A stretch of 38,052 nucleotides of DNA from Gemmatimonadales bacterium (GTDB lineage: Bacteria; Gemmatimonadota; Glassbacteria; GWA2-58-10), in the NCBI GenBank assembly GCA_024278175.1, contig JAJRTS010000097.1, positions 1 to 38,052 of the forward strand, in the 5' to 3' direction. Below the pieces are notes generated by a model. The model had not been told where the DNA came from. It saw only the letters and a list, made by a program, of their open reading frames with translations, and did no database searches. A program made the translations under genes and the position numbers. Of the stretch, positions 14,301 to 37,849 are shown piece after piece (the stretch's first letter is position 1; each line of letters begins with the position of its first letter).

Positions 14301-14384
14301 ATCACTTCTACCCTCTTGACACTTTTCGTGCTTCCCACGCTTTACGGATGGTTTGAACAGAAAGCCGAGGAAATCGAGTTGTAG
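11301..14384 (+). CDS. CzcA/CusA-family heavy-metal RND efflux pump
   Basis: 1027 residues, full length for the HME-RND family. It has the N-terminal helix, the PIDAFPDVTPV and EVEKLITYPIE motifs, two large periplasmic loops and twelve membrane helices. Helix 4 carries MMVDGSIVMVEN with Asp403 and Glu410. The first Asp of the Zn-type DFG..VDG motif is absent (GGLAIGVG instead), so the sequence is closer to CusA-like members than to CzcA itself. The metal cannot be fixed from this. It uses the proton gradient to drive metal ions out through the adaptor encoded just upstream. A PII-like gene follows after 52 bp. The C-terminus is the region matched by the pseudogene at 9229-9553. Confidence 0.93.
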   Translation: MDKFIDFVVRQRLLVVLFALIVAGSGFLALRRLPIDAFPDVTPVLVQIFTEAEGLAPEEVEKLITYPIEVSMNGLPGITDIRSLSTFGLSVVSVYFDDKTDIYFARQLVFERLQAAREEIPAGLGDPEMGPITTGLGQVYQYFVEGEGYELMELRTIEDWIVKYQLRTVPGVTEVLSFGGLVKQFQIRIDPNLLLKYGLTLDELVEAVKDNNRNTGGSFLVRGAEEYLVRGLGWVRAVDDIANIKIASRDGGIPIYVRNVAEVVLGPEIRRGIVTRNGEGEVVSGIVLKLIGQNTTEVIDNIKRKITQINAQLPEGVRVVPYYDQADLVDKAVGTVKDALFEGAVLIVIVLFIFLWNVRSALVVLSTLPLSALVSFILMDYVGMSANLMSLGGLAIGVGMMVDGSIVMVENIFRHLTEGEGERVGILPAVGRAAQEVARPIVFAIGIIIIVFLPLFTLQEVEGKLFAPMAFTISFAMLGSLIFSLTLVPVLCTFVLKGRLSEKESPVLRLLKRFYIPMLHWAIHRRKTTVAVASGALVISLFLVPFLGTEFVPILEEGSMLVRATMAPSTSLVQAKETTLKLEKILLGFPEVKNVLSKVGRAEIGGDPEPVNNSEIFVELAPPEQWTTARTKEGLIEKMREKLLQFPGILLNVSQPIAIRVDELISGVKAQLAIKIFGDDLEVLIQKAGEVQRVISGVAGGADLQVEQVGGQPQVQVAIDRGKLARYGINVSEVQDVIRTAIGGSTAGQVFEGQRRFDIFIRLKQSFRNDVKAIGNILVSAPNGSRIPLSQLAEIQTMVGPKQISRENNRRRVVIQCNIRDRDMGSFVAEARRLVKEQVDLPAGYLVTWGGQFENQQRAMKRLIVIVPLTVFLIFIMLFSAFNSVRNALLIVLNVPFAMTGGIVALFCTGLYLSVPASVGFIALFGVAVLNGVVMVSCINQLRAEGLSLEEAVVHGSELRLRPVMMTALVASLGLIPLLFSSGIGSEVQRPLATVVVGGLITSTLLTLFVLPTLYGWFEQKAEEIEL

Positions 14385-14436
14385 TCACCGGAATCGAGAC
14401 AGGTGTTACACTGTTTCAAACTTGAAGGAGGATGCC

Positions 14437-14778
14437 GTGAAAGAGATCAAGGCAATCATAAAGCCCTTCATGCTCAGCAAGGTGATTGACGCCCTGCATG
14501 GGATTGAGGGCCTGCCCGGAGTCACTGTTTCGGACATCCGGGGTTTTGGAAAGAGCAAGGGAGAAGACGCCTCGCACAAGATCATCGAGGATAAGATCGA
14601 GTACGTGCCCAAGGTAAAACTGGAGATCGTAGTCGAAGACGAGCTGGTGGAGCACGTGGTGAAGGTGATCATGGATCACGCGCATACAGGGATTATCGGA
14701 GATGGAAAGGTCTTCATCTACGATGTGAAAGAGGTATTCAAGGTCCGAACCGGGGAACGAGGTCATGCGGCAATCTGA
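14437..14778 (+). CDS. PII-like protein of the metal-efflux (PII-NG) group, copy 2
   Basis: 113 residues from GTG 14437, preceded by GAAGGAGG (14424-14431) at six bases; the longer frame from 14353 overlaps the pump gene and has no PII homology in its first 28 codons. It has VKEIKAIIKP, IRGFGKSKGED, EYVPKVKLEIVVEDELVEH, HTGIIGDGKVFIYDV and the end VFKVRTGERGHAAI, all typical of PII. The Tyr51 position of GlnB is a His (ASHKIIED) and Gln39 is a Ser, so it cannot be uridylylated as GlnB is. The B- and C-loop residues that bind ATP/ADP are kept. It probably reports nucleotide state to the pump encoded just upstream. It closely resembles copy 1 at 9574. Confidence 0.92.
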   Translation: MKEIKAIIKPFMLSKVIDALHGIEGLPGVTVSDIRGFGKSKGEDASHKIIEDKIEYVPKVKLEIVVEDELVEHVVKVIMDHAHTGIIGDGKVFIYDVKEVFKVRTGERGHAAI

Positions 14779-24225: not shown

Positions 24226-24641
24226 GTTGACCTCCGCTGAAAAAACGGGACAGGAACGGGCCATGAATAAGTGTAAAACCGGTTCAGAGTAAATCCCTGG
24301 AGCAAACCCCGGTAATGGAACCACGGTTAACGGGCAGGGCAGCCTTCCAGTTGCACAACAGGGCAGGTGCGTCGCCCCGCCAGAGACAAAGATAGCAAAA
24401 AGGATACCATATCCGCCTGGCGATTCGGATCGTGCAAAAGGTGTTGACCAATCGCTGATTTTGGAATACTGTTTTAAAAGAGGTAAAGTCCATACCGGAA
24501 CCGCCACGGATTGCGTTAACCGAACGCCGTAGCGTATGATAAGGGGCAGAGCGTCATTCGCTTCGACCATTGGGTAGGTTACTGAATGTTTTTTTACGCC
24601 CCTCTGGCTGAGACCCTGATTTTATCAACCTGGGATTAAGC
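24226..24641. other. Divergent intergenic region upstream of the sigma-54 activator
   Basis: 416 bases with no convincing gene. A plus-strand promoter candidate, TTGACC (24444-24449) and TACTGT (24467-24472) with 17-base spacing, could drive the activator gene. TTTTTTTACGCCCCTCT at 24589-24605 is a variant of a motif seen at 2162, 22180 and 22393. Confidence 0.45.
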
Positions 24642-26207
24642 ATGCTGACGATCGAAGGAAAACCTTTGAAAAAAGCCAGGAATCTGGAGCTTTTCCAGGA
24701 ATTGATTGAGATGTTCCGCTACATTACGGAATTTAATTTTACTTTCATCCCGGCCGACAACAAGTATGCCATGCTCAGGACACCTGACGCCAAGAGTAAG
24801 GAAACCGATTTTTGTAAGATTATCCAGACCGATCCGGAAGGCTTAAAACAATGCTGTGATGAAAATCGCTTGATCACAATCATGAACAAAATGAAAAAAC
24901 CCCTGATCGAAACCTGCCATGCCGGGCTGATCGATGTTTTTATTCCTGTTATTATCGACTCCGAGTTCATCGGGTATTTCTGTCTGGGCAAATTCCTGTT
25001 CAACCCTCCCACTGACGGGGGGTTCAAGGAGATTCTCGAAAAAACGAATACACTCGGGATTGACAGCGGACAGTTGCGAAAAGCGTATTTCAAGACGAGA
25101 GTGTTGAATAAAGACTACATCGACTTGTTAACCCGAATTTTCATCCCGATTGCCACGAAAATGGTAAGCATGGAACTGGACATCTGGGAGGAGAAAAAGA
25201 AGGTTGAAAAACTCAACTATTTGCTGTTTAAAAAACACTTCTCAGACGAGATTATTGGCCGAAGCGAAAAAATGAGGGCGATATTCACTTATTTGGGCAA
25301 GATCAACAAAAGCGACGGCTGCGTTTTCATTTGTGGAGAGAGCGGTACCGGCAAAGAGCTGATAGCCAAGTATATCCACGTGAACAGCAGCAGGAAGGAA
25401 AAACCTTTCCTTGCAGTGAATTGCGCATCTCTTTCTGACCAGATTCTCGAATCTGAACTCTTTGGCCACGTCAAGGGGGCTTTCTCGGGTGCAATCCAGG
25501 GTCGGTTAGGTATTCTGGAGACAGTTAACGGCGGAACCCTCTGCCTGGATGAAATCGGAGAAACCAGTCTGGCGTTCCAGAAAAAATTACTAAGGGTTAT
25601 CGAAGAAAAGGAGATAAGACCCGTAGGAAGCGATAAAATAAAAAAAATAGACATCCGTTTCGTTGCATCCACCAACAAAGACCCCAAAAAGTTGATCCGC
25701 GAAGGCAAGTTCAGAGAAGATCTGTTCTATCGACTCACGGTTTTCAATATAGTAATCCCGTCTTTAAGGGAGCGCCCCGAGGATATCCCGGTCCTGACAA
25801 AGCACTTTTGCACCAAACAGACAGATAAGTATGGGGCAAAAGAGTTGTCCTTCACCAGAAAAGCGATAGAGGCGCTAATGAACTATCAGTGGCCGGGGAA
25901 TGTAAGAGAACTGAGAAATTTTGTGGAAAAACTCTACTTCCTGGCCGAAGGCGAAGTAACCGCCTCAATGGTAAAAAGCTACCTTGAAACGGATGTCGGC
26001 CATCAGGCAGGCCGTTCGGAATTGTTTTTTGATGATTACGAGTCTGCTTTTGAAAATTTTGAGCGGAAGTTTCTTTTTCATAAACTTACGCAAAATAGCT
26101 GGAATGTCTCGAAAACCGCCCGTCAGCTCGGCAGAACCCGGGAATGGCTTTCCCGCAAGGTCAGCACTTTAGAACTAAAAAAAGAAAATCCGACAACCGG
26201 ACCGTGA
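24642..26207 (+). CDS. Sigma-54-dependent activator with N-terminal PocR sensory domain
   Basis: 521 residues. The N-terminal 180 residues are a PocR domain with the expected cysteines (Cys58, Cys71, Cys72, Cys92) in TDFCKIIQTDPEGLKQCC and ETCHAGLIDVFIPV. PocR domains are thought to sense small hydrocarbon derivatives (Anantharaman and Aravind). An AAA+ domain follows with Walker A GESGTGKE (232-239), the sigma-54-contacting loop GAFSGA (279-284) and Walker B LCLDE (300-304). The C-terminus has a Fis-type helix-turn-helix (NVSKTARQLGRTREWLSRKV). It should activate a -24/-12 promoter, and one lies in the gap just downstream, in front of the GH4 gene. The ligand is unknown; the neighbouring genes suggest a carbohydrate or hydroxy-acid breakdown product. 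Confidence 0.93.
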   Translation: MLTIEGKPLKKARNLELFQELIEMFRYITEFNFTFIPADNKYAMLRTPDAKSKETDFCKIIQTDPEGLKQCCDENRLITIMNKMKKPLIETCHAGLIDVFIPVIIDSEFIGYFCLGKFLFNPPTDGGFKEILEKTNTLGIDSGQLRKAYFKTRVLNKDYIDLLTRIFIPIATKMVSMELDIWEEKKKVEKLNYLLFKKHFSDEIIGRSEKMRAIFTYLGKINKSDGCVFICGESGTGKELIAKYIHVNSSRKEKPFLAVNCASLSDQILESELFGHVKGAFSGAIQGRLGILETVNGGTLCLDEIGETSLAFQKKLLRVIEEKEIRPVGSDKIKKIDIRFVASTNKDPKKLIREGKFREDLFYRLTVFNIVIPSLRERPEDIPVLTKHFCTKQTDKYGAKELSFTRKAIEALMNYQWPGNVRELRNFVEKLYFLAEGEVTASMVKSYLETDVGHQAGRSELFFDDYESAFENFERKFLFHKLTQNSWNVSKTARQLGRTREWLSRKVSTLELKKENPTTGP

Positions 26208-26219
26208 TAATTTTATCAC
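26204..26219. promoter_or_regulatory. Putative activator site 1
   Basis: GTGATAATTTTATCAC is a nearly perfect palindrome overlapping the stop codon of the activator gene. It shares the GT.A.......ATCAC frame with sites 2 and 3. Confidence 0.45.
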
Positions 26220-26222
26220 ACC

Positions 26223-26238
26223 GTTAATAAAAAATCAC
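26223..26238 (+). promoter_or_regulatory. Putative activator site 2
   Basis: GTTAATAAAAAATCAC differs from site 3 at two of 16 positions. It starts 19 bases after site 1, close to two helical turns. Confidence 0.45.
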
Positions 26239-26420
26239 AGTCAGGAATACTCGATACTCCCTCTCCCGGTCACTCCTTTCAACTTCCATTCCCGGCACCG
26301 ACCCATCCCATATCATGGTCTTGCGGCCTGATTCATCTGCATTCCTTTTTCTATTCAGGTGAAAACGGGCTGAAAGCCGCTTTTGAATCTTGCGGGCAAG
26401 AAAATGCTTAATTCTGAAGT

Positions 26421-26436
26421 GTTAAAAATAAATCAC
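26421..26436 (+). promoter_or_regulatory. Putative activator site 3
   Basis: GTTAAAAATAAATCAC lies 116 bases upstream of the -24 element of the sigma-54 promoter candidate, a usual distance for an enhancer site. Confidence 0.45.
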
Positions 26437-26534
26437 ACTTCCATTTCCGCTTGTCAAATCCCGTTTTCAGAAATCAACATATAACTCTCAGCCAATAAGG
26501 CAGTTAGGGCGGCAATGAGGCAATGGAAAAGCAG

Positions 26535-26551
26535 AAGGCATAATGATTGCC
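26535..26551 (+). promoter_or_regulatory. Candidate sigma-54 (-24/-12) promoter
   Basis: AAGGCATAATGATTGCC has GG (26537-26538) and GC (26549-26550) exactly ten bases apart, with GGCA and TTGC kept as in the consensus TGGCAC-N5-TTGCA. Transcription would start near 26562, leaving a leader of about 264 bases before the GH4 gene. The activator gene is directly upstream. Confidence 0.55.
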
Positions 26552-26635
26552 TTTATTTGAACCGGCAGGAGGGGCGCCCTCAGTAAAATATTCAGCACCC
26601 TCAAATCAAATATTTCGCTTGGTTGAGCCGCCCAG

Positions 26636-26743
26636 GGGCAAGGCAAGCCGTTTTATTGCCGTTTTTGCCATTTGTTTTATTTCAAGCAGTTAGATTGCTC
26701 ATGCCGGCTGAAAGCCGGCAACAGCGGGGAACGGCCCTTGACA
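26636..26743 (+). repeat. 108-bp repeat element with conserved ends, copy 2
   Basis: It starts GGGCAAGGCAAGCCGTTT and ends AACGGCCCTTGACA, the same ends as copy 1 (22234-22340, minus). The interior is unrelated and contains the hairpin at 26702-26720. It lies in what would be the transcribed leader of the GH4 operon. Confidence 0.55.
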
Positions 26744-26825
26744 GCCCTGGCGCTTAGTGAAAATCTCGTTGTTATCAACGGCAAACTCGATTCCAGGATG
26801 CAGGGACCGGTAAAAAGGAGAGCAG

Positions 26826-28112
26826 ATGTCTAAGCGGATTGCATTGATAGGTGCCGGCAGCACGCTTTTTACCAGGGGGATCATGGGTAGTCTGGTTACG
26901 GATCAACGGTTCGAAGACAGTACTCTGGTAATGATGGATATCAATGCGGATGTTTTATCCCTGATGGAGTGTTATGCGAATAACATTGTAAAAGACTCGG
27001 GCAGTTCACTGAAGGTGGAAGCCACTACCAGTCTTGAGCAGGCGCTTGAAGGCGCGGATTATGTGATATGCACAATGGCGGCCAACGATTCTCAAGCCAG
27101 GGGCATTGAGGTCGAGGTTCCACTGAGTTTCGGCTATCATCACTCCTGGGGTGATACGACAGGCCCGTCGGGTGTGTTCCGCGGCTTACGTCATATCCCG
27201 CTTTTTTTGGAGCTGGCTCATCAGATGGAGAGTAGCTGCCCGCAAGCGTGGCTGATAAATATCACTGATCCGATGGCTGTATTGTGCCGTGCGATCAGAC
27301 TTGAATCCAGGATAAGAACCATCGGATTTTGCGATGGTCCGCCGTATTACCGGAGAATAATCGAGCGGGAGATTTTCCAGCAGGAGAGCGATAACTCGCT
27401 GCAAATCAAGATGGCGGGGATAGATCACCTGTTATGGGTTCTTGAGCTAAAAAAAGATGGAGAGGATTTATACTCACAGCTTCGTGGGCAAATCGACCGG
27501 ATTCGAAAGCGTTTTCCTGTAAATGCGGAGCTTCTTTGCATTTACGATTATTTCCCTCTGCCCGGCGGAGAGCATATAAGCGAATTTTTCCCGTTTTTTT
27601 TACGGGATGAAGCTACGATGGGCCAGTACGGGTTGAAGCAGATGGATGTCGGCTGGCACCGTCACAGAAGAGAGATTAAGCTACAGGAGATACGCCGGGC
27701 GGTACAGGGTAATGGGCCGCTTAAACCGGAGCCCTTGGAGCCGGAGGATGAAGTACTGGAGATTATTCACAGTATTGCTAATGATGACAGACGGGAATTC
27801 GTGTTGAGCCTGCCCAACCAGGGCCTGGTAAAGAATCTTCCGGATTATGCGGTGGTGGAAGTGCCGGTTCTGTTAGGCGCGGAAGTTTATCCGCTGGCGG
27901 AGCTGGAAATCCCCCCGCAGCTTACCGGAGTTCTCCATGCGAGCATAGTGAAAGATGAGTTGACGGTTCAGGCCGCCCTGAGCGGGAGCAGGGAACTGGT
28001 GTTCAAGGCTGTGCTGATGTGCCCTTTGATCCAATCGATCGACCAGGCGCGAAAAATCACCGCGGCGATGTTCGAGGCGCTGGAGGATTTTCTGCCGGTC
28101 CACTTTGTCTGA
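26826..28112 (+). CDS. GH4-family glycosidase (NAD- and metal-dependent type)
   Basis: 428 residues, usual GH4 length. The N-terminal Rossmann motif is IALIGAGSTLFTRG, followed by DINADVL, SWGDTTGPSGVFRGLR, NITDPMAVLCRA (145-156), GFCDGPPYYRR (Cys169) and GIDHLLWVLELK (His201). Cys169 and His201 match the Mn-binding residues of the family. Most alpha-glucosidase/galactosidase members have CH and GINH; here these read CD (Asp170) and GIDH, and NPM reads DPM, so this is a divergent subgroup. GH4 enzymes cleave glycosides by an NAD redox and elimination mechanism in the cytoplasm; the substrate here is open. An AAGGAG lies before the ATG. It is the first gene after the sigma-54 control region. 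Confidence 0.88.
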   Translation: MSKRIALIGAGSTLFTRGIMGSLVTDQRFEDSTLVMMDINADVLSLMECYANNIVKDSGSSLKVEATTSLEQALEGADYVICTMAANDSQARGIEVEVPLSFGYHHSWGDTTGPSGVFRGLRHIPLFLELAHQMESSCPQAWLINITDPMAVLCRAIRLESRIRTIGFCDGPPYYRRIIEREIFQQESDNSLQIKMAGIDHLLWVLELKKDGEDLYSQLRGQIDRIRKRFPVNAELLCIYDYFPLPGGEHISEFFPFFLRDEATMGQYGLKQMDVGWHRHRREIKLQEIRRAVQGNGPLKPEPLEPEDEVLEIIHSIANDDRREFVLSLPNQGLVKNLPDYAVVEVPVLLGAEVYPLAELEIPPQLTGVLHASIVKDELTVQAALSGSRELVFKAVLMCPLIQSIDQARKITAAMFEALEDFLPVHFV

Positions 28113-28292
28113 ACAAATGGGTGTTTGCAGATTTCCCGAACTTCGTTTTGAAAACCAGTTAAGGCTTTAAGAATAAAAATCTTAGCGTTTGGATTCGGCT
28201 GGCGCAACTCGGGCGGTCAAGTCCATGCAGGCCTGTCTTCGGCCGGAGTCACGGCAGCCATTCCAATTGAACTTTTAGCAGCGGAATGAAAA

Positions 28293-29708
28293 ATGTTAAA
28301 ATATGGCGATATGCTTGTAAACTTCTTATTGAAAACACGGGAGCGATCAGCGGCATTCTGGCTGTCGATCTTATTGATCGCAATCGGCTGTCTTCCGGTA
28401 CCGGGTCATGCCCAGAAGCTGGAAAAATACAAAAAACTCTGGGAAGACCAGGCTTTAATGGAAAAGATCGATGACGACATCGAGACTTTCCGTAAGCAGG
28501 ATGCGGTCATCAAGGTTGTTTCGGAAGACGGAGAGCCTTTAGCGGGCGCGCAAATACAGGTAAAACAACTGACGCATGAGTTTCTCTTCGGCTGCAATCT
28601 TTTTATGCTCAAAGGTTTCAGCACCGAAAAAGAAAACAGGAAATATGAAACGGCGTTCCTGAAAATAAATAACTTCGCCACAGTGCCTTTTTACTGGTCC
28701 GACCTGGAGCCGGAACAGGGAAAAGTCAGGTTCGGCAAGGATTCTGAAGTCATCTATCGGCGGCCGCCCCCCGATCTGTGCGTTGAATGGGCAACCGAAC
28801 ATAACGTCACCCTGAAGGGGCATCCTCTGGCCTGGCATTCCTGGTATCCGGACTGGCTGCCGGACGACCGGCAGGAGGTGACCCGGCTGCTGGCCGATCG
28901 TTTTGCGCAAATTGCCCGGAGGTACGCAAAGCGCATTAAAATATGGGACGTGGTCAATGAATCGTTAGTCAGACCCGTAAACCGCGTCCTGCCGGAAGAT
29001 TACCTTGCCTGGTCCTTCAAAGAGGCCGACCGGCGCTTCGAGCCTGACAATAATCTGATGATAAACGAGGTGACGAGGATCTCCCACAAGTACCTCAGGG
29101 AAGACAGCCAGTACTATTTACAGATTATGAACCTGAAGCTGCGCGGGATTCGATTCGATGGAATCGGGTTCCAGTTCCATACCTGGAGTATCAACCCGGA
29201 TGACATAGGTCCCGGCAAAGATTATGATCCGTGGCAACTGTTGGACACCTACGCGTTATACGGCAGATTCGGCAAGCCTCTTTACATTACTGAAATTACA
29301 ATCCCCACTGCCGGAGAGGGGAAGCAGGCGCAAGAGATGCAGGCATATTTCGCTCGCAACCTGTATCGCCTCTGGTTCAGCGTGCCCCGGATGGCGGGGA
29401 TCACCTGGTGGAATCTTGCCGATGGAACCGCCTATGCGAAGGAGAACAAACAAAGAGGTGGATTGCTCGATGAACAACTGGAGCCGAAAGCGTCCTATCA
29501 GGCCCTGGACCGGTTGATAAACCACGACTGGAAGACTGCGACGGAGGGGGAGACTTCCGCCAACGGGATTTTCTCATTCAGGGGGTTCTGTGGACAATAC
29601 GCTGTAACGGTAAAATATAAGAATATTACCAAAGGATTTAGCATTGACGTATCCAAGGACAAAGATGTTTATCACCCGTTGATTTTAAAGGAGCGGCTTG
29701 AGCGTTAA
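28293..29708 (+). CDS. GH10-family endo-beta-1,4-xylanase-like secreted protein
   Basis: 471 residues. A signal peptide (AFWLSILLIAIGCLPVPGHA) should be removed near residue 40. A short beta-rich N-terminal domain follows (about 70-105, AVIKVVSEDGEPLAGAQIQV). The GH10 barrel (about 110-430) shows LKGHPLAWHSWYPDW, the acid/base Glu223 in IWDVVNES, the QFHTW strand and the nucleophile Glu334 in PLYITEITIPT. A small C-terminal beta-domain ends the protein. GH10 enzymes cut xylan and related beta-glycans. The start could be ATG 28293 or 28311; the ribosome site is weak for both. It stands 180 bp after the GH4 gene and in the same direction, probably in the same operon. Confidence 0.88.
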   Translation: MLKYGDMLVNFLLKTRERSAAFWLSILLIAIGCLPVPGHAQKLEKYKKLWEDQALMEKIDDDIETFRKQDAVIKVVSEDGEPLAGAQIQVKQLTHEFLFGCNLFMLKGFSTEKENRKYETAFLKINNFATVPFYWSDLEPEQGKVRFGKDSEVIYRRPPPDLCVEWATEHNVTLKGHPLAWHSWYPDWLPDDRQEVTRLLADRFAQIARRYAKRIKIWDVVNESLVRPVNRVLPEDYLAWSFKEADRRFEPDNNLMINEVTRISHKYLREDSQYYLQIMNLKLRGIRFDGIGFQFHTWSINPDDIGPGKDYDPWQLLDTYALYGRFGKPLYITEITIPTAGEGKQAQEMQAYFARNLYRLWFSVPRMAGITWWNLADGTAYAKENKQRGGLLDEQLEPKASYQALDRLINHDWKTATEGETSANGIFSFRGFCGQYAVTVKYKNITKGFSIDVSKDKDVYHPLILKERLER

Positions 29709-29795
29709 TCGAAAGAATTCCCCGGAGCTTTGCCGTTGTCAGCGCAACAACCGACAATGCCGACTCTTATCTCTTCATCCAGCAGGAGTATTCGA

Positions 29796-30911
29796 ATGGT
29801 TTTTTTCAGGACAAGGTTCAGGCTGATGCTGGCGGGCCTGCTTGCGCTGCCCCTGGCACTCATGGCGCAAACCGGTGATTTGAAACTGCTGGACTGGAGG
29901 CCTGTGAGCCAGTTGGTGGTCAGGCAGACTGACGTCTTAAAGCCGAAATTCCCGGTGATCGACATTCACAACCACCTGGGCTGGTGGGGATCGCTGGACA
30001 GCACCCGGAGATACCTGGAGGAGATGGACAAGGCGGGAGTGTGGAAATGTATCAGCCTGGACGGGCTCTCGAAAGATGATTTTTTCAAGGAGCACATCCG
30101 TGTTTCTCACAGTATCGCCGGGGAGCGGATTGTCGTTTTCTTCGTTCCGGATTACAGCAGGATCGATGAGCCGGACTTTGGGAACAAGGAAGCGAAGAAG
30201 CTCGAGGAAGCGGTGAGGATGGGTGCGCGGGGGCTTAAAATCTACAAGGCCCTGGGATTGACCCTGCGCGACAAAAGCGGGCGCGTGGTGCCGGTGGACG
30301 ACCCCAGGTTCGATCCGATCTGGGCCAAGTGCGGCGAGCTGGGCATTCCGGTAATGATCCACGTCTCCGACCCCAAGGCTTTTTTCACACCCGTCGACAA
30401 GTATAACGAGCGCTACGACGAGCTGGGAGCGCACCCGGACTGGGCATTCTACGGCGATGAGTTCCCCTCCAAGGAAGAGGTCCTGGCCCAGCGCAACCGG
30501 GTGTTCGCCAGGCACCCGAAAACTGTTTTCATCGGCGCCCACATGGGAACTCTCCCGGAAGAACTCCACCAGGTGGCGATGTGGCTCGAGAGCTATCCCA
30601 ATTTCTACGTGGACATTGACGCCCGGATTGCGGAACTGGGACGGCAGCCCGTTACGGCGCGGAAGTTTATGATCGACTACCAGGACCGGGTTCTTTTCGG
30701 CGTGGACAGCCCGCCGAATGCCGAGCTATACAAAATTTACTACCGCTTTCTGGAGACCGATGACGAGTATTTCGACTACTCGGCGGGTCTGTTCAACCAG
30801 GGAAGATGGAGGATCTACGGTCTGCATCTGCCCGATGAGGTGCTGGAAAAAATCTATAACAAGAATGCGCTGAAAATCTTCGCAATGTTCAAGGGAGCGG
30901 CAAAAAAGTAG
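29796..30911 (+). CDS. Amidohydrolase-family (Amidohydro_2) secreted metalloenzyme
   Basis: 371 residues from ATG 29796, which has AGGAG eight bases upstream and opens into a signal peptide (FRLMLAGLLALPLALMAQ). The open frame begins earlier at 29730, without a ribosome site. The barrel carries the first metal motif DIHNHLGWW (His58, His60), a GLKIYKALG strand, HVSD, FIGAHMGTLPEE and the closing DRVLFGVDSP Asp. Relatives hydrolyse or decarboxylate cyclic or aromatic substrates, or act on lactone-like sugars. A periplasmic member beside xylanase and GH4 genes suggests a sugar-acid or lignin-linked ester substrate; this is inference. It lies 87 bp after the GH10 gene. Confidence 0.8.
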   Translation: MVFFRTRFRLMLAGLLALPLALMAQTGDLKLLDWRPVSQLVVRQTDVLKPKFPVIDIHNHLGWWGSLDSTRRYLEEMDKAGVWKCISLDGLSKDDFFKEHIRVSHSIAGERIVVFFVPDYSRIDEPDFGNKEAKKLEEAVRMGARGLKIYKALGLTLRDKSGRVVPVDDPRFDPIWAKCGELGIPVMIHVSDPKAFFTPVDKYNERYDELGAHPDWAFYGDEFPSKEEVLAQRNRVFARHPKTVFIGAHMGTLPEELHQVAMWLESYPNFYVDIDARIAELGRQPVTARKFMIDYQDRVLFGVDSPPNAELYKIYYRFLETDDEYFDYSAGLFNQGRWRIYGLHLPDEVLEKIYNKNALKIFAMFKGAAKK

Positions 30912-31128
30912 CGCTCAGGCCGTGCCGCTTGACCGGTTCGGTGTTCGTGGAAGCCGGAAAGCCTTTGATGCGCTGACGAGATTGCAACTGATCACAGGAA
31001 AAAATCCTGCGCAGAAAAGCCCGGGCCGATCAAACAGGCGGGATCCTTTTTGAAAAGTTTCTGCTGACAGCAACGGATGGGAGCAGGCTGATCATCAGCA
31101 AAAGCCCATAAAATCGAGGAGACGAAAA

Positions 31129-33759
31129 GTGCCGATTCGTATATTGGAACAACTCAAAACAGACTGTTCCGTTTTTTCCCAGGGGTATCACTCATGGTTT
31201 AACCGGCTGATGGCGGGTACTCTGGCGGCAGTGCTGATCAGCGGCGCTTTGCTCCCGGTCCGCGCCGGGATAACGGTTGTCTCCTATCTGCTCCGCGACC
31301 GGGCGGTTGTACTGGACAGCCTGGTAATGCGTAAACAGATGTTCTTTGCTTTCAAACTTTCGCAGCCTCTTGCAGAGCTTAAAAATAGCGCCGTGGTGGG
31401 GATCCTCACTCACGGGGAACAAGACCGGGTGCTGGCTCAGGATACCGCTTATATCTTCGATGAGGCCGCCGGGAACCTGGGTTTCGGACTGCCCTTTGAG
31501 ATCCCGGACGGTAAGTATCACCTGGAGATAAAACTGCTCTCACCCGGGGGGGAGGTACAGGACAGCTATTCCGGCGATTTCGACCGCAGCGAGCTGAAAC
31601 CCTATTTCAACCGGGCGATCAGCTACTGGGATTTCACCACGCCGTATGCCCACCTCGAATGCAGAGGCTACGGGGACCTGACGTACAGTTTCAGCAGCGG
31701 GAAATCCATCGGCAAGCTGCAGGCGCTGGAAATCCAGGCGCGGATTACCTCGGATAACAGCTTCCCGGGACGGACGAAAGTGTCGTTGAACGGGGTCGAG
31801 CTCGGCGAGTTCGAGCTGCCTGCCGCGAACAACAGTGCTCCGCAGGTTGTGAGCTGGCGCGTGGAGAGTCCGCAAGCTCTCTCGGCACTTTCGATTCGGT
31901 CGGGTGAGAACAGCCTGAGTTTTTCTATCACCCGCCGGATAAGCCCCCGGGGATTTGGTTTCAGAATATTCTCGGACAAGAACAGCCGGGAGAGCGAAGT
32001 CGAGCCGGGAGTTCCGATCACGCTCACGGTTATCCCCGCGGGCGGGGAATCCGCCGAAACGGTCTTTCGTATCCCGGTCTGGGGGGAGGAAGGCGAGCAT
32101 ATTCAGAGCAAATTCACTATCCCCGGTCCGGATAGTTTCAGCGAGGAAATAATCGAGCCGGAACAGGTCCCTTTCCCGCTTGCGGCCGCGCAGATCAAGC
32201 AGGGCTATATCGTGTTCCGGAGAGATTTCCTGCGTTATGTCTATCCCTGGACTATCCCCGCCGAGCGAGAGCAGATTGATTCCCTCCATTTGCGCATGAG
32301 CCGGAATGATTTCGAGCCGCTGACTTTCTCGATCTATCCGGTCCGGGAACTGGGAGAGGTCAGCCTCACGCTCAGCGATTTGAAAGGAACCGGCGGCGCG
32401 CTCATTCGTGCGGACAACATGCAGGTTCATGTGGCAAAAACCGTAAAGATGCGTACGGGCAGGGGAACGCAATACCGCCTGATTCCCCGTATGCTGGAGC
32501 GCACGCAGCACGCTTTCATCCCTGTCGACTACACCACCCGTTTCTGGATAACGCTCCATGTGGGTAACACCGTGGCCCCGGGCCGATACACCGGCGTCAT
32601 CCATCTGCAGCCGCAAAAAGAGCAGGCCGTGGACATTCCTTTCTCGGTGGAAATTCTGCCCATTGCCCTCGAGCCGGTTCCTGGAATCACCTACAGCATG
32701 TTCATGACCTACGAGTTTTTCGAGCTTGAGAGCAAGGACTGGAACGACGAACAGCGGCGGAAGATTTACCGCGATGGGGTAAACGTATTCAGGGATTTCA
32801 AGAACCACGGGCTGACCACTGTCGATGTGTCAAGCCCTTACTATTTCCAGTGGAACCGCGATGGAACCCCCAGGATGGAACATTTCAAGGGCATGATCAG
32901 GGGGGCTAAAGAGGTTGGATTCACTGATCCGGTGTTCTGGTATTTCGCCCATTACGTCCAGGCGGCGAAATCATTTCATCCCGGTAACGTGCTTTCCTAC
33001 GACCCGGCAGTTCATCCGAAGCGGGCCGCGTTTCTGGTCAGGACGGCGCAGAGACTTGCCCGGGAGCTCGACGGGCCGCCGGTCTATTTCGTGCCGATCG
33101 ACGAGCCGCGGGTGGCCTCGCGCCAGCGGATAACCCTGGAGCTTCTCAAGGCGATCAAACAGGTGCCGGGTGTGGTTACCCAGGTCAGCACCGATATCGG
33201 CGGCAAGCTGCTGGCTATCGAGAACAACAGTGGAAGATACATCAAGAGGCTGGGCCCGGGCGAAAAGGTGAGAAAATCGGACAGGGAGGTCTGGGAGTAC
33301 AATAACGCGGTGGTCCACAGCCTGAATCCGGGCTACAGCCGCTACATTTACGGTTATTACACCTGGCGCCAGGACCTGGATGGAATGAACAGCTGGGGTT
33401 TCAACACCGCCGAAAACTCCAGGGGGAATCCTTACGAGGACCTGGACCACGACCGTAACGATTGGAATCTTGCCTATCCCCATGCCGGCGGCCCGTTGCC
33501 TACCCCCAACTGGGAAGCTCTCCGGGAGGGAATCGACGACGTGCGCTACGTGTACCAGTTGGAGAGGCTTATTAAACAAAAGGCCGCTGACTTCCCGGCA
33601 CAGACCGCGGGGGCCGGGAAGTTTCTTGATGAGCTTCGCGGCAAATGCGACTTCGAAGCAAGAACGATAATCAACGAATTCGGAGAATGGAATCCCGAGA
33701 GATTCAACTCGATACGCAGCGATATTATCTCGTGGATTTTGAAGCTGAAGGATCTCTGA
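31129..33759 (+). CDS. DUF4091/GH123-like secreted protein
   Basis: 876 residues from GTG 31129 with GAGGA upstream. A signal peptide-like segment (MAGTLAAVLISGALLPVRA, about 28-46) is followed by a long beta-sandwich N-terminal part (about 50-510) and a TIM-barrel-like C-terminal half. Near its centre is VPIDEP (Asp658-Glu659), the place of the acid pair in GH123-like proteins, and near the end REGIDDVRYVYQLE, which is the DUF4091 hallmark. Family members are thought to be glycosidases, perhaps on N-acetylhexosamines; none of this is tested here. It continues the same-strand run of secreted carbohydrate-active genes, 217 bp after the amidohydrolase. Confidence 0.8.
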   Translation: MPIRILEQLKTDCSVFSQGYHSWFNRLMAGTLAAVLISGALLPVRAGITVVSYLLRDRAVVLDSLVMRKQMFFAFKLSQPLAELKNSAVVGILTHGEQDRVLAQDTAYIFDEAAGNLGFGLPFEIPDGKYHLEIKLLSPGGEVQDSYSGDFDRSELKPYFNRAISYWDFTTPYAHLECRGYGDLTYSFSSGKSIGKLQALEIQARITSDNSFPGRTKVSLNGVELGEFELPAANNSAPQVVSWRVESPQALSALSIRSGENSLSFSITRRISPRGFGFRIFSDKNSRESEVEPGVPITLTVIPAGGESAETVFRIPVWGEEGEHIQSKFTIPGPDSFSEEIIEPEQVPFPLAAAQIKQGYIVFRRDFLRYVYPWTIPAEREQIDSLHLRMSRNDFEPLTFSIYPVRELGEVSLTLSDLKGTGGALIRADNMQVHVAKTVKMRTGRGTQYRLIPRMLERTQHAFIPVDYTTRFWITLHVGNTVAPGRYTGVIHLQPQKEQAVDIPFSVEILPIALEPVPGITYSMFMTYEFFELESKDWNDEQRRKIYRDGVNVFRDFKNHGLTTVDVSSPYYFQWNRDGTPRMEHFKGMIRGAKEVGFTDPVFWYFAHYVQAAKSFHPGNVLSYDPAVHPKRAAFLVRTAQRLARELDGPPVYFVPIDEPRVASRQRITLELLKAIKQVPGVVTQVSTDIGGKLLAIENNSGRYIKRLGPGEKVRKSDREVWEYNNAVVHSLNPGYSRYIYGYYTWRQDLDGMNSWGFNTAENSRGNPYEDLDHDRNDWNLAYPHAGGPLPTPNWEALREGIDDVRYVYQLERLIKQKAADFPAQTAGAGKFLDELRGKCDFEARTIINEFGEWNPERFNSIRSDIISWILKLKDL

Positions 33760-33814
33760 TAATCCGAGTTTGCACCAGATCCACTTTTTTTCTAGCTGCT
33801 GAAAGGGAGATTCA

Positions 33815-35302
33815 ATGAGCACCCTGAACGTTGGGCCGGTTCTCGATGGGAAGGAGCAACATGAGGCGGGAGGCGGTCTGCACCAGGTGGTCAATCCGGC
33901 CACCGGCGCGGTGATCGCCCGGGAGGCCTGCTGCAACTCCTACTCAATCGGCCGGATCGTGGAATCGAGTATGAACGCATTCGAGTCCCCGGCCTGGAGG
34001 AACATGGCTGCGGCCGGGCGCGGGAATCTGCTGCTGAAGCTGGCGGATCTGGTAGAGGAAAACGCCGGCGAACTGATCAGGCTCGAACTGCTCGATACCG
34101 GTAAACCGGCCACTCAGCTTAAAGACGGGGAAATCCCTCTTACCGCGTCAATTATCAGATTTTACGCCGGCGCCGCGGACAAGATCGAGGGCAGGGTGAA
34201 ATCCACCACGGAAGGAGGATTCCATCTGACAATGTACGAGCCTTATGGCGTGGTTGCCGGTATCCTGCCCTGGAACTACCCACTGGTTAACGCCGCCCTG
34301 AAAGTAGCCCCGGCCGTGGCCGCGGGCAATGCGATAATTCTCAAGCCATCCGTGGAGACTCCTCTTTCCTGTGTCGCCTTTGCCAGGCTCTGTCGCGAGG
34401 CAGGTTTTCCGCCGGGGATTGTCAATGTCGTACTGGGGTCCGGCTCCAGCGCCGGAGCCGCACTGGTGGAACATCCCGGGGTGAAAAAAATATCATTCAC
34501 CGGCTCCACCGGGGCCGGCCAGGTTATTCAAAAGCAGGCCGTGGAGCAGATGAAAACCGTGAACCTCGAGTTGGGAGGTAAAAACGCGATCCTGGTTTTC
34601 GCCGATGCCGACCTGGACCGGGCCGCTGATGCTGCTATTTTCAGCGGGTTTGTCAATGCAGGGCAACTGTGTGTCTCTTGTTCCCGGCTGCTTGTGGAGG
34701 AAACCGTGGCGGAGCGGTTTGAATCGATCCTGCTGGAGAAGATGAAAAAAGTGATCGTTGGAAAGCCTGAAGCCCCCGATACGCTGATCGGACCGATGAT
34801 TACCAGGTCTCAGTATGAAATCGCCCTGCGGTATCTGGCGGAGGCGCCGGGGGAGGGTTGCAGGGTATTGTGCGGGGGGGGAAAGCTTGATCTGCCGGCG
34901 CCGCACGACAAGGGATTCTGGCTCGAACCCACATTACTCTCCGGCGTAAAGCGTGGGATGAAAGTGGCGGTCGAGGAAATTTTCGGTCCTGTTTTGAGCA
35001 TTATGACTTTCAAGGATGAAGCGGAAGCGGTGGAACTTTCCAATATGGTGATCTACGGTTTATCCGGTTCGCTGTGGACAGGCGATGGAGAACGCGCCCT
35101 GCGGGTAGTCAATGCGCTCGATACCGGGTTGATCTGGGTCAACTGCATGTTCATCGGCTATCCACAGATCCCGCTCCCGCCGCACAAGATGAGCGGTACC
35201 GGGGTCGAGCTTGGATTCGAAGGTCTGCTGGCCTATTGCAAAAGAAAAAGTACCGTACTGGGTTATGACCGGGGAGCACCCGTGGGATGGAACCTCAAAT
35301 GA
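33815..35302 (+). CDS. Aldehyde dehydrogenase (NAD(P)-dependent)
   Basis: 495 residues, full length. The motifs are LPWNYPL (Asn154), ILKPSVETPLS (Lys177), FTGSTGAGQ, LELGGKNA (Glu252), NAGQLCVSCS (catalytic Cys286) and EEIFGPVLS. It belongs to the broad betaine-aldehyde/succinate-semialdehyde group and oxidises an aldehyde to an acid in the cytoplasm. The ATG at 33815 has AAGGGAGA upstream. Its stop overlaps the start of the next gene as ATGA, so it is coupled to the D-threonine aldolase-like enzyme. That enzyme would release an aldehyde, such as acetaldehyde from D-threonine, which fits a joint pathway. Confidence 0.92.
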   Translation: MSTLNVGPVLDGKEQHEAGGGLHQVVNPATGAVIAREACCNSYSIGRIVESSMNAFESPAWRNMAAAGRGNLLLKLADLVEENAGELIRLELLDTGKPATQLKDGEIPLTASIIRFYAGAADKIEGRVKSTTEGGFHLTMYEPYGVVAGILPWNYPLVNAALKVAPAVAAGNAIILKPSVETPLSCVAFARLCREAGFPPGIVNVVLGSGSSAGAALVEHPGVKKISFTGSTGAGQVIQKQAVEQMKTVNLELGGKNAILVFADADLDRAADAAIFSGFVNAGQLCVSCSRLLVEETVAERFESILLEKMKKVIVGKPEAPDTLIGPMITRSQYEIALRYLAEAPGEGCRVLCGGGKLDLPAPHDKGFWLEPTLLSGVKRGMKVAVEEIFGPVLSIMTFKDEAEAVELSNMVIYGLSGSLWTGDGERALRVVNALDTGLIWVNCMFIGYPQIPLPPHKMSGTGVELGFEGLLAYCKRKSTVLGYDRGAPVGWNLK

Positions 35303-36396
35303 GCGAAAAAAGTTTTCGAAAGCAGTTTATCGGTAAAAGTGTGGAGGAACTCGATACGCCTGTCATCGTGGCGGACCTCGATGCCTTGGAAGCCAATCTG
35401 TCTTTGCTTTCCGGATATTTTTCCGGTCGGCACTGCAAGGTTAGGCCGCATTTCAAGTCACACAAGTGTGTAACCATGGCCCGCCGTCAGCTGGCCTGTC
35501 CCAACACCGTCGGCATCACCTGCGCCAAGATTTCAGAGGCGGAAGTGCTCGTTGCAGGGGGGATCGAGGATGTTCTGCTCGCCAATCAACTGATCGGCCG
35601 GAATAAAGTCCGTCGCCTGGCGCGGTTAAACAAGCAGGCCAGGGTACGGGGGGTTGTGGATTCCAGGCAGGGAGTGGACCGGCTCGGCACCGCGGCCAGA
35701 GATGAAGGGGTAACCATCGGCGTGCTGGTGGAGGTGGACATCGGCATGAACCGCTGTGGAGTGCTTCCCGGCGGTCCCGCGCTGGAGTTGGCCGAACTTG
35801 TGGTCCGCACCGGGGGATTGCGCTTTGATGGACTTCAGGGTTACGAGGGGCACCTCGTAACCACCGAAAATTACGAGGAGCGATGCCGGCTGGTCGCAGA
35901 AGCGCTGGCTCCTTTGATTGAAACCAGAAAAGCTATTGAAAACGCAGGTTTAACGGTTTCCATTGTCTCCTCGGGCGGCACGGGCACCTACGATATCACG
36001 GGTAATATCGAGGGTGTGGATGAAGTACAGTGCGGCAGTTATGCATTGATGGACGCCCAGTACAGCAAGGTCCGCCCTGAATTCAGGAATGCCCGTTATG
36101 TGCTGGCCACTGTAATCTCGACCCGGGGAGAAAAAGCAGTTGCCGATGTCGGCTTGAAAGGGATGGGAGCGGAATACGCCGCACCGGTGGTTGAGGGCCA
36201 TCCTGAGGCGGAAGTGCTCTATGTGGCCGAAGAACATACCGTGATCGAAAGCCTGGCGGCCGCGCCGGGAGACCGGATTCGTCTTATTCCCCCCCACGGC
36301 TGTACCACGAATAACCTTTATGAGCGGATGTGGCTGGTACGGCGGGACATTATCGAGGACATCTGGCCGATTGAAGGCAGGGGATGTCTCGAATAA
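35299..36396 (+). CDS. D-threonine aldolase/D-serine dehydratase-like PLP enzyme (DSD1 family)
   Basis: 365 residues from ATG 35299, which overlaps the upstream stop by four bases; ATG 35287 is also in frame. It has the alanine-racemase-type barrel with ELDTPVIVADLDALEANL, the PLP-lysine motif RPHFKSHKC (49-57), VDSRQGVDRLG, VEVDIGMNRCGV, GLQGYEGHL and the C-terminal HGCTTNNLYERM, whose His and Cys match the metal site of the family. Relatives cleave D-threonine or other D-3-hydroxy amino acids to glycine and an aldehyde, or dehydrate D-serine. Which reaction applies is not decidable here. The aldehyde dehydrogenase next to it favours the aldolase reading. Confidence 0.88.
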   Translation: MSEKSFRKQFIGKSVEELDTPVIVADLDALEANLSLLSGYFSGRHCKVRPHFKSHKCVTMARRQLACPNTVGITCAKISEAEVLVAGGIEDVLLANQLIGRNKVRRLARLNKQARVRGVVDSRQGVDRLGTAARDEGVTIGVLVEVDIGMNRCGVLPGGPALELAELVVRTGGLRFDGLQGYEGHLVTTENYEERCRLVAEALAPLIETRKAIENAGLTVSIVSSGGTGTYDITGNIEGVDEVQCGSYALMDAQYSKVRPEFRNARYVLATVISTRGEKAVADVGLKGMGAEYAAPVVEGHPEAEVLYVAEEHTVIESLAAAPGDRIRLIPPHGCTTNNLYERMWLVRRDIIEDIWPIEGRGCLE

Positions 36397-36416
36397 AACA
36401 ACGTCAGGAGGCTTTA

Positions 36417-36884
36417 GTGGCAAGATACATTGAGATCAGCTTTGTGGAAGATAATATTTCAGTGCGGGCCCGGCTCCTGGAGGACGAAATGCCCCGCACG
36501 TGCGCCGAATTGCTTAAACATATGCCTCTGGAAGGCACGGCGACCCATGCCCGGTATTCGGGCAGTGAGTTGGCCCTGCTACTTCCCACCCACATCAGGG
36601 TTGAGCGGGAAAAGGCTACCTGCGCGGTGCTTCCGGGTGATGTGGCCTATGTCTGGCTCAACCGTGATGATCATTACGGGCTGGATGACGATATTTCTGA
36701 AATATGCTGGTTCTACGATCGCGACTCCCAACCCCGGATGTGGGAAGGCCCGCTCCGGGTTAATGTCTTCGCGCACATCGAGACAGATTCCTCCCAGTTC
36801 TATAAAGCTTGCGCGGACACACGCATCTCGGGAGTTAAAAAGGTTGTTATCAAACTTCTGGAAAACCAAGGCGACAACAGATGA
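36417..36884 (+). CDS. DUF3830 family protein (cyclophilin-like fold)
   Basis: 155 residues from GTG 36417, with AGGAGG (36406-36411) five bases upstream; the ATG at 36384 lies within the preceding gene. The sequence VRARLLEDEMPRTCAELLKH then MPLEGTATHARYSGSELALL is typical of DUF3830, which has a cyclophilin-like barrel. The family occurs in catabolic operons and has no proven function. It ends with a TGA overlapping the ATG of the next gene (ATGA), so it is translationally coupled to the 3-hydroxyacyl-CoA dehydrogenase. The role is unknown: perhaps isomerase or metal-dependent hydrolase, or a substrate-binding helper. Confidence 0.8.
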   Translation: MARYIEISFVEDNISVRARLLEDEMPRTCAELLKHMPLEGTATHARYSGSELALLLPTHIRVEREKATCAVLPGDVAYVWLNRDDHYGLDDDISEICWFYDRDSQPRMWEGPLRVNVFAHIETDSSQFYKACADTRISGVKKVVIKLLENQGDNR

Positions 36885-37849
36885 ACAATCCCACAAATGA
36901 CAGTATTGAGAAAGTCGGCCTGATCGGTCTGGGCCTGATGGGCCAGGGTATTGCGAGCAGCCTGATAGCCAACTCTCTGCAAGTTGTGGCATATAGCAGG
37001 AATGGGGCCAGGGGAAAAGAAGCCCGGCGCCATATCGATGAAGCATTAAAACAGCTTTTACAAAGAGAGGTTATTCCGCATTCAGCCGTCTCGGACTGGC
37101 AAAGCCGGTTTACATTTGTCCGGAGTCTTGAAGATTTAAAAGATTGTCCTGTTATTATCGAAACAATTGTGGAGACCCTGTCTTTGAAACTGGATATATA
37201 CGATGAACTTGAATTAGTGGTTCCCGCCAGGACCGTTATCGCCAGCAACACGTCCAGTATTCCAATCTCTCAGCTTCAGCATGGCCGAAAGCACCCGGAA
37301 AGATTCATCGGTATGCACTGGTCCGAGCCGGCGGAAATCACCCGTTATCTTGAAATAATCAGGGGAAAACAGACTTCCGATCAGGCGGTGGACTTGATCC
37401 ATCAACTCGGAGTGCTCTGTGGCAAGGAGCCATCGGTGCTGAATGTCGATATCCAGGGTTTTGTCTCTAACCGCCTGATGTACGCAATGATGAGGGAAGC
37501 CTGCCACCTGGTTGAAACAGGCGTGGCCGATATTGAAACCGTGGACCGCTCGTTTCGCAACGATATCGGCTGGTGGGCAACTATCGCCGGCCCTTTCCGC
37601 TGGATGGATTTAACCGGGATTCAGGTCTATGCCACGGTTATGGAAACTCTGTTTCCTGAGTTGTCCAATTCAAAGAGCCTGCCGAAAATGATGAAAGAAA
37701 AAGTTGAAAGCGGAGCGGAAGGCATTTCGAACAGGAAAGGATTTTATAGCTACACAAAATCCAGTGCCAGGGAGTGGGAAAAAGTCTGGCTGGACTTTAC
37801 TCATGAACTCAGAAAACTCGTTGAGAAATATGAAAAAAGAGTTGAATAG
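36881..37849 (+). CDS. 3-hydroxyacyl-CoA dehydrogenase family protein
   Basis: 322 residues. The N-terminal Rossmann fold has VGLIGLGLMGQGIASSL, the VIIETIVETLSLKLDIYDEL region, SNTSSIPISQL and ERFIGMHWSEPA. The C-terminal helical domain has QGFVSNRLMYAMMREACHLV and DRSFRNDIGWW. This matches the 3-hydroxybutyryl-CoA dehydrogenase/L-carnitine dehydrogenase family, which oxidises a beta-hydroxy group with NAD. Where acyl-CoA members have GxHFFNP, here the motif reads GMHWSEPA, suggesting a non-CoA substrate such as a free hydroxy acid. It overlaps the DUF3830 gene by four bases and is the last gene of the run. Confidence 0.88.
   Translation: MNNPTNDSIEKVGLIGLGLMGQGIASSLIANSLQVVAYSRNGARGKEARRHIDEALKQLLQREVIPHSAVSDWQSRFTFVRSLEDLKDCPVIIETIVETLSLKLDIYDELELVVPARTVIASNTSSIPISQLQHGRKHPERFIGMHWSEPAEITRYLEIIRGKQTSDQAVDLIHQLGVLCGKEPSVLNVDIQGFVSNRLMYAMMREACHLVETGVADIETVDRSFRNDIGWWATIAGPFRWMDLTGIQVYATVMETLFPELSNSKSLPKMMKEKVESGAEGISNRKGFYSYTKSSAREWEKVWLDFTHELRKLVEKYEKRVE

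Follow-up and report, generated by a model that had tools for sequence, protein, structure and literature searches.

A predicted PocR-type sigma-54 switch ahead of a GH4-headed catabolic gene run in a Gemmatimonadales genome

One-component sigma-54 activators such as NifA, NorR, FhlA, PrpR, and DhaR combine a sensor, an AAA+ domain, and a Fis-type helix-turn-helix (HTH). They act from palindromic upstream sites, often several, on a -24/-12 promoter, and the activator gene often lies beside its target. Once bound to its ligand, an activator of this class loops from the upstream sites to the RpoN polymerase and opens it with ATP. LevR is a sigma-54 activator of sugar genes. CelR, of the same LevR/CelR type, also places sugar genes under sigma-54 control and has PRD domains, according to the accessible part of its description (PMC10864463). 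In Clostridiales, as far as the accessible part of PMC6615313 describes them, 32 activator groups have several sites upstream of their targets, the sites lie mostly 100–250 bp from the promoter, and 15 of the groups show TGT/ACA repeats with 10–12 bp between. Several upstream sites 100–250 bp from the promoter are ordinary for sigma-54 activators.

PocR sensors also occur in other protein types. AraC-type PocR of propanediol loci and PocR histidine kinases share this sensor family and occur beside catabolic genes, according to the accessible part of PMC4207490. A 2006 paper counted NtrC-like AAA+ among the outputs separated from sensors such as PocR by a signalling helix, and the exact PocR/NtrC-like AAA+ pair was not seen in the accessible part of that paper (PMC1592074). 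The literature searched, from which subscription papers were mostly absent, yielded no description of a PocR sigma-54 activator together with its sites.

The locus analysed here lies in a 38,052-nucleotide stretch of DNA (the window). Its system belongs to the known sigma-54 activator kind, and the predicted site is new. Compared with NifA, NorR, FhlA, PrpR, and DhaR, it has a PocR sensor, sites of the predicted form TGTGA-N8-TCACA, a tandem pair with constant 19-bp spacing at the activator stop codon, a third site 217–227 bp after site 1, and target genes that vary between relatives. Its output is a sigma-54 AAA+ domain, unlike that of AraC-type PocR and the PocR histidine kinases, and in contrast to CelR it has a PocR domain and lacks any PRD match at a threshold as loose as E 10. 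DNA site, promoter, and target are thus predicted for a PocR-type sigma-54 activator, which would make a ligand search by simple reporter feasible. The sensor is, moreover, one without a solved-structure relative found by sequence (no PDB chain matched the PocR domain at E 0.1 or better), and three genera retain the regulatory cassette in front of differing genes.

Activator, sites, and promoter in the window

The first-pass annotation had proposed a PocR/sigma-54 activator, and this identity was borne out by both Pfam domains, which exceeded their cut-offs (PocR, PF10114, 87.5 vs. 23.9 bits; Sigma54_activat, 211.1 vs. 20.2 bits). HTH_8 scored 17.9 bits in the window protein, below the cut-off of 22, and 24.7, 24.4, and 28.5 bits in three orthologous proteins, all above it. 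Comparison of the four activators showed a GAFSGA loop in three, including that of the window, and GAFTGA in the fourth, with GESGTGKE and GGTLCLDEIGE invariant; we take these to be the GAFTGA loop and the Walker motifs. In addition, the HTH segment LGRTREWLSRK was identical in all four amid variable flanks, as expected if the four activators read the same site. At E 0.001, the activator stayed below every cut-off of the NCBIfam equivalogs (NifA, NorR, PrdR, PrpR, DhaR, and others) among the 25 of 28 matches listed, the best of those listed being NifA (323.1 vs. 528.85 bits). The genome also has an RpoN gene (PF04552, E 3.1e-63), and an RpoN DNA-binding domain is encoded by 6/6 genomes of the class. 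A small hydrocarbon-derived ligand has reportedly been predicted for the PocR family, whose founding paper is that of Anantharaman and Aravind (2005).

Table 1. Features of the locus (window coordinates; sites, promoter, and leader are predictions)
Feature	Coordinates	Strand	Remarks
Sigma-54 activator	24642..26207	+	PocR sensor domain, AAA+ domain with GAFSGA loop, Fis-like HTH
Site 1	26204..26219	+	GTGATAATTTTATCAC; palindromic, spans activator stop codon; placement relative to stop kept in both relatives
Site 2	26223..26238	+	GTTAATAAAAAATCAC; starts 19 bp past site 1; spacing exact in 3/3 genomes
Site 3	26421..26436	+	GTTAAAAATAAATCAC; centre ~133 bp ahead of predicted transcript start
Sigma-54 promoter, -24 GG / -12 GC	26537..26550	+	GGCATAATGATTGC, GG-N10-GC; counterparts GGTACAATGTTTGC, GGCACGGCCCTTGC in relatives
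Predicted 264-nt leader	26562..26825	+	start placed from the -12 element
GH4 glycosidase	26826..28112	+	first gene after promoter; Pfam PF02056 147.2 bits, PF11975 112.4 bits
Co-directional catabolic genes	28293..37849	+	GH10-like, amidohydrolase, GH123-like (weak), aldehyde dehydrogenase, D-serine dehydratase/aldolase-like, DUF3830, 3-hydroxyacyl-CoA dehydrogenase

The activator gene is followed by a 618-bp gap and then by the GH4 gene (Table 1). The three 16-bp sites reported by the first-pass annotation are present as described: all fit GTKAN7ATCAC, sites 2 and 3 agree at 14/16 positions, and the activator gene ends inside site 1, with its TGA at 26205–26207. Site 1 is palindromic almost throughout, and a consensus of about TGTGA-N8-TCACA fits all nine sites of the three genomes (the two relatives are described below). 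Of the arms that mark the NifA/FhlA-like class of upstream sites, TGT and ACA separated by 10–12 bp, TGT-N12-ACA is intact in three of the nine (window site 3, G003 site 2, and G004 site 1), and in the remaining six one arm is short of a letter. In 20,000 dinucleotide-preserving shuffles per gap, the interval 26204–26825 (622 bp) gave a single site in 63 and more than one in none, against three observed. Exact sites numbered three in the gap of G003 and two in that of G004, and more than one occurred in 0/20,000 shuffles of either. On a matrix built from the same nine sites, eight of them scored 17.6–26.3 and G004 site 2, with one mismatch, 12.4.

The spacing of 116 bp from site 3 start to promoter start and the GG-N10-GC signature were also confirmed. 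The pattern GG[CT]A[CT]N5TTGC arose on the forward strand in 272 (window), 77 (G003), and 144 (G004) of 20,000 shuffles, and because of the first of these counts the window promoter, taken alone, is only suggestive. On a sigma-54 weight matrix made from the consensus, all scores of which are rough, GGCATAATGATTGC ranked third in the window (11.3 vs. 13.2 and 11.7). The element scoring 11.7, TGGTATCCTTTTTGCT, lies on the minus strand at 24394–24409, ~170 bp before the probable GTG start (24225, by eye) of a divergent transglutaminase-like gene.

Three candidate elements around the promoter were considered and rejected. An RNA element in the leader was dismissed, as the fold did not exceed shuffles in strength (z 0.11) and the Rfam scan of the leader gave nothing above gathering score. 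A ROK or TonB gene remnant there was unconvincing by tblastn (best E 0.03 for any query). As for IHF bending of the DNA from site 3 to the promoter, the window has consensus matches with one mismatch, at offsets 268 and 290 relative to site 1, to which nothing corresponds there in the relatives. The leader does hold a perfect hairpin, GCCGGCTGAAAGCCGGC, at 26703–26719; its core, GGCTGAAAGCC, recurs in the same gap at 26368, 338 bp upstream, and was absent from 43.7 kb of 20 other loci of the genome.

Layout of the cassette in relatives

When the PocR part of the activator was used as query (E 1e-15) against a phylum sample of 395 genomes, it matched in three, namely the own genome, G003 (two tandem copies), and G004, the last two being members of the same family. 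A whole-activator search of 41 genomes gave matches in 41/41, because the AAA+ domain is common, and full-length orthologs only in G003 and G004 (61–69% identity). Moreover, a contig scan confined to close relatives returned 43 loci with no full-length ortholog, the matched residues starting at residue 152 at least. The activator is found in three of the six genomes of the class used here and is missing from G001, of the same genus. PocR matches numbered one in the own genome (the activator itself), three each in G003 and G004, and zero in G001, G002, and G005. In G003, two activator genes stand in tandem (L071 4922–8188, G003:C105), and the upstream copy is nearer the window protein (68–69%) than the copy beside the sites (62%).

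The comparison on which the first-pass annotation had staked its proposal came out in its favour: the motif and the GG/GC layout are kept in both orthologous gaps. In all three genomes the activator TGA lies within site 1. Counted from site 1, site 3 starts at 217 bp in the own genome and at 223 and 227 bp in the relatives, and the -24/-12 element at about 332 bp in the window and at 322 and 341 bp in the relatives, so that site 3 and the element are 115–116, 99, and 114 bp apart. This layout in 3/3 genomes, together with the RpoN gene, gives good support to the predicted activator, three-site enhancer, and -24/-12 promoter.

Alignment of the three gaps (loci L071 of G003 and L072 of G004 with the window) showed the sites and promoter as islands in poorly conserved DNA. 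Identities for the three genome pairs were 31, 20, and 21 of 37 in the site 1–2 block; site 3 was identical at 14–16/19 positions between genomes (best background 19-mers, 12–14), and in the promoter 20-mers 15, 12, and 10 of 20 positions agreed. Because the islands are short and weakly alike outside the half-sites, position and palindrome carry the conservation argument, which draws on three genomes of one family. Less usual are the constant placement at the stop codon and the separation of sites 2 and 3, which hardly changes in length (198, 204, and 208 bp) although its sequence is not conserved. The predicted leader is 264 nt long in the window and shorter in the two relatives (about 104 and 76 nt).

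With at most one mismatch allowed, GTGAN8TCACANNGTGAN8TCAC, the pattern for the tandem pair, occurred in 5/395 genomes, which were the three activator genomes plus G219 and G272, and no reversed control was among the matches listed. Around the pair places of G219 and G272, frames of at least 150 codons, judged by eye, revealed no PocR/AAA+ activator in the surrounding 3 kb.

Genes behind the promoter

Neither the alpha-galactosidase nor the alpha-glucosidase model of NCBIfam was matched by the GH4 protein above its cut-off. The run headed by its gene is broken by intergenic stretches of 180 bp (28113–28292) and 217 bp (30912–31128), and since these gaps interrupt it, a single transcript reaching the last gene is conjecture. 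No diol genes were recognised among the window genes scanned. Elsewhere in the window, an ORF at 14353–14778 with a P-II match overlaps the 3′ end of an AcrB-type efflux pump gene by ~30 bases.

The first-pass annotation had proposed that the promoter drives the GH4-to-HAD genes as an inducible circuit. This assignment is less certain and holds for position only: within the window the promoter faces GH4, but the relatives do not share this target. Behind the cassette promoter of both G003 and G004 stand a ROK-family gene and a TonB-dependent receptor gene, with no GH4. Between the two genomes the ROK genes are 33% identical and the receptors 72–73%; Plug and CarboxypepD_reg were matched in both receptors, TonB_dep_Rec_b-barrel in that of G003. 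In the own genome the relatives' ROK gene had a single match, at 24% identity, and hence no close copy; for their receptor the best match was 43%.

Conversely, GH4 orthologs (59–63%) were located on other contigs of G003, G004, and G002. The runs around them share a GH123-like gene in G003 and G004 and an aldehyde dehydrogenase in G002 and G004; an aldolase-like gene is present in G002, with a piece at the contig end in G004, and G002 also has DUF3830 and acyl-CoA dehydrogenase genes. GH10-like and amidohydrolase genes were not found on these contigs. Nor did the contigs carry a strong site, the best place scoring 8.7 (one place, G002) and none reaching 8 in G003 or G004. Because GH4 orthologs lie on other contigs without sites and ROK/TonB genes lie behind the relatives' cassette, cassette and catabolic module appear to be separate units, joined only in the window genome among those seen, in assemblies that for the relatives are fragmented (G003 84% complete). 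The best reading of the comparison is that the cassette was probably kept while the regulated genes differ. In G004, the GH4 gene sits after a heparinase II/dockerin gene, and the GH4-module run (L109 195–12472, G004:C126) lies beside heparinase II, dockerin, and cohesin proteins, perhaps with a role in acidic-glycan breakdown.

Proposed switch and alternative readings

From the domains, sites, spacing, conservation, and RpoN gene, all read from sequence, we consider it highly likely that the activator, three sites, and -24/-12 promoter form an apparently local, ligand-inducible sigma-54 switch. The predicted switch is very probably real, and it would be one more example of a well-known switch type. 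Binding, oligomer, looping, start site, ligand class, and transcript extent are modelled on the biology of the activator class. The PocR domain would bind a small molecule, probably a sugar or glycan derivative, and the activator, presumably as dimers, would bind palindromes of about TGTGA-N8-TCACA, two in tandem at the stop codon of its gene and a third ~115 bp upstream of the promoter. With ligand bound, the AAA+ domains would assemble and the DNA would loop. The GAFSGA loops would then act on RpoN-polymerase waiting at GGCATAATGATTGC, ATP hydrolysis would open it, and the GH4 gene, perhaps with the following genes, would be transcribed.

The sites might instead belong to another regulator, for example of the CRP/FNR family, and stand next to the PocR activator by coincidence. 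The CRP/FNR site is TGTGA-N6-TCACA, and the half-sites TGTGA/TCACA found here resemble the CRP half-site; the 16-bp pattern is, moreover, met at 32 further places in the genome. However, the spacer is 8 and not 6, although the search pattern itself fixed the spacer, and the pair occurs in 3/3 activator genomes against 2/392 without a match to the PocR part at E 1e-15. G001, G002, and G005, which are of the family and lack the activator, have no paired pattern either, and we judge this reading very unlikely. Control mainly of the activator's own gene, by autoregulation or by a roadblock at the stop codon, is suggested by the overlap of site 1 with that codon in 3/3 genomes. Such control would leave the -24/-12 element 99–115 bp after site 3 in 3/3 genomes to be accounted for, and no place scoring at least 8 on the nine-site matrix lies ahead of the activator gene; it seems improbable to a high degree.

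A closer question is the length of the unit, as the sites and promoter may be real yet serve no more than GH4 or the first few genes, with separate promoters for the remainder of the run. The 180- and 217-bp gaps inside the run argue for this, as does the occurrence of much of the GH4 module without the cassette in relatives. Terminator-like patterns in 26180–31200 also exceeded chance (12 vs. mean 5.9, sd 2.8), six of the 12 lying on the plus strand, although all six fall inside the GH4 and GH10-like genes. Against it, the run genes are all on one strand, sigma-70-like matches in the same interval were at chance (5 vs. mean 4.0), and neither gap holds a sigma-54-like match scoring at least 9 on the consensus-based matrix. 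A short unit is a serious possibility, which we lean somewhat against. We hold with more reserve, and rather doubt, that activator, three-site array, and promoter are a portable cassette, kept as a unit while unrelated glycan genes are exchanged behind it, with the 198–208 bp between sites 2 and 3 marking a fixed loop that links two assemblies of the activator. If this were true, the PocR domain would sense one common glycan-derived signal.

For the wider genome, the scan for the motif near -24/-12 promoters, as proposed by the first-pass annotation, covered 22 of the 32 places outside the gap and supported no further target, and a wider regulon was set aside for these places. The 16-bp pattern gave 39 rows in the own genome (35 distinct places, since a palindrome appears once per strand), compared with 14 for the reversed control, and any single 16-bp site therefore means little. 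Around the 22 places there was no clustering of the pattern, unlike in the activator-GH4 gap, and 19 of them lay within stop-to-stop frames of at least 100 codons. Of the three outside such frames (L084, L089, and L090), L084 and L089 each had one sigma-54-like match more than 500 bp from the site, and L090 (score 14.4) had none of at least 10.5 in its 2 kb. At L093 a sigma-54-like match lay 31 bp from the site, yet L093 itself is inside a 609-codon frame. The exact pattern TGTGAN8TCACR, across six genomes, gave only single places besides the arrays, with 16 rows against 18 in the reversed control in all. On the nine-site matrix, the best scorer elsewhere (L077, 16.9) was in a peptidase-like gene and the site of L078 (14.3) in a fliN-like gene, both named by eye. 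A strong sigma-54-like element, TGGTATAAATATTGCA (L078 787–802, G000:C13; 13.9 on the consensus-based matrix), stands ahead of that fliN-like gene, hinting at sigma-54 control of flagellar genes.
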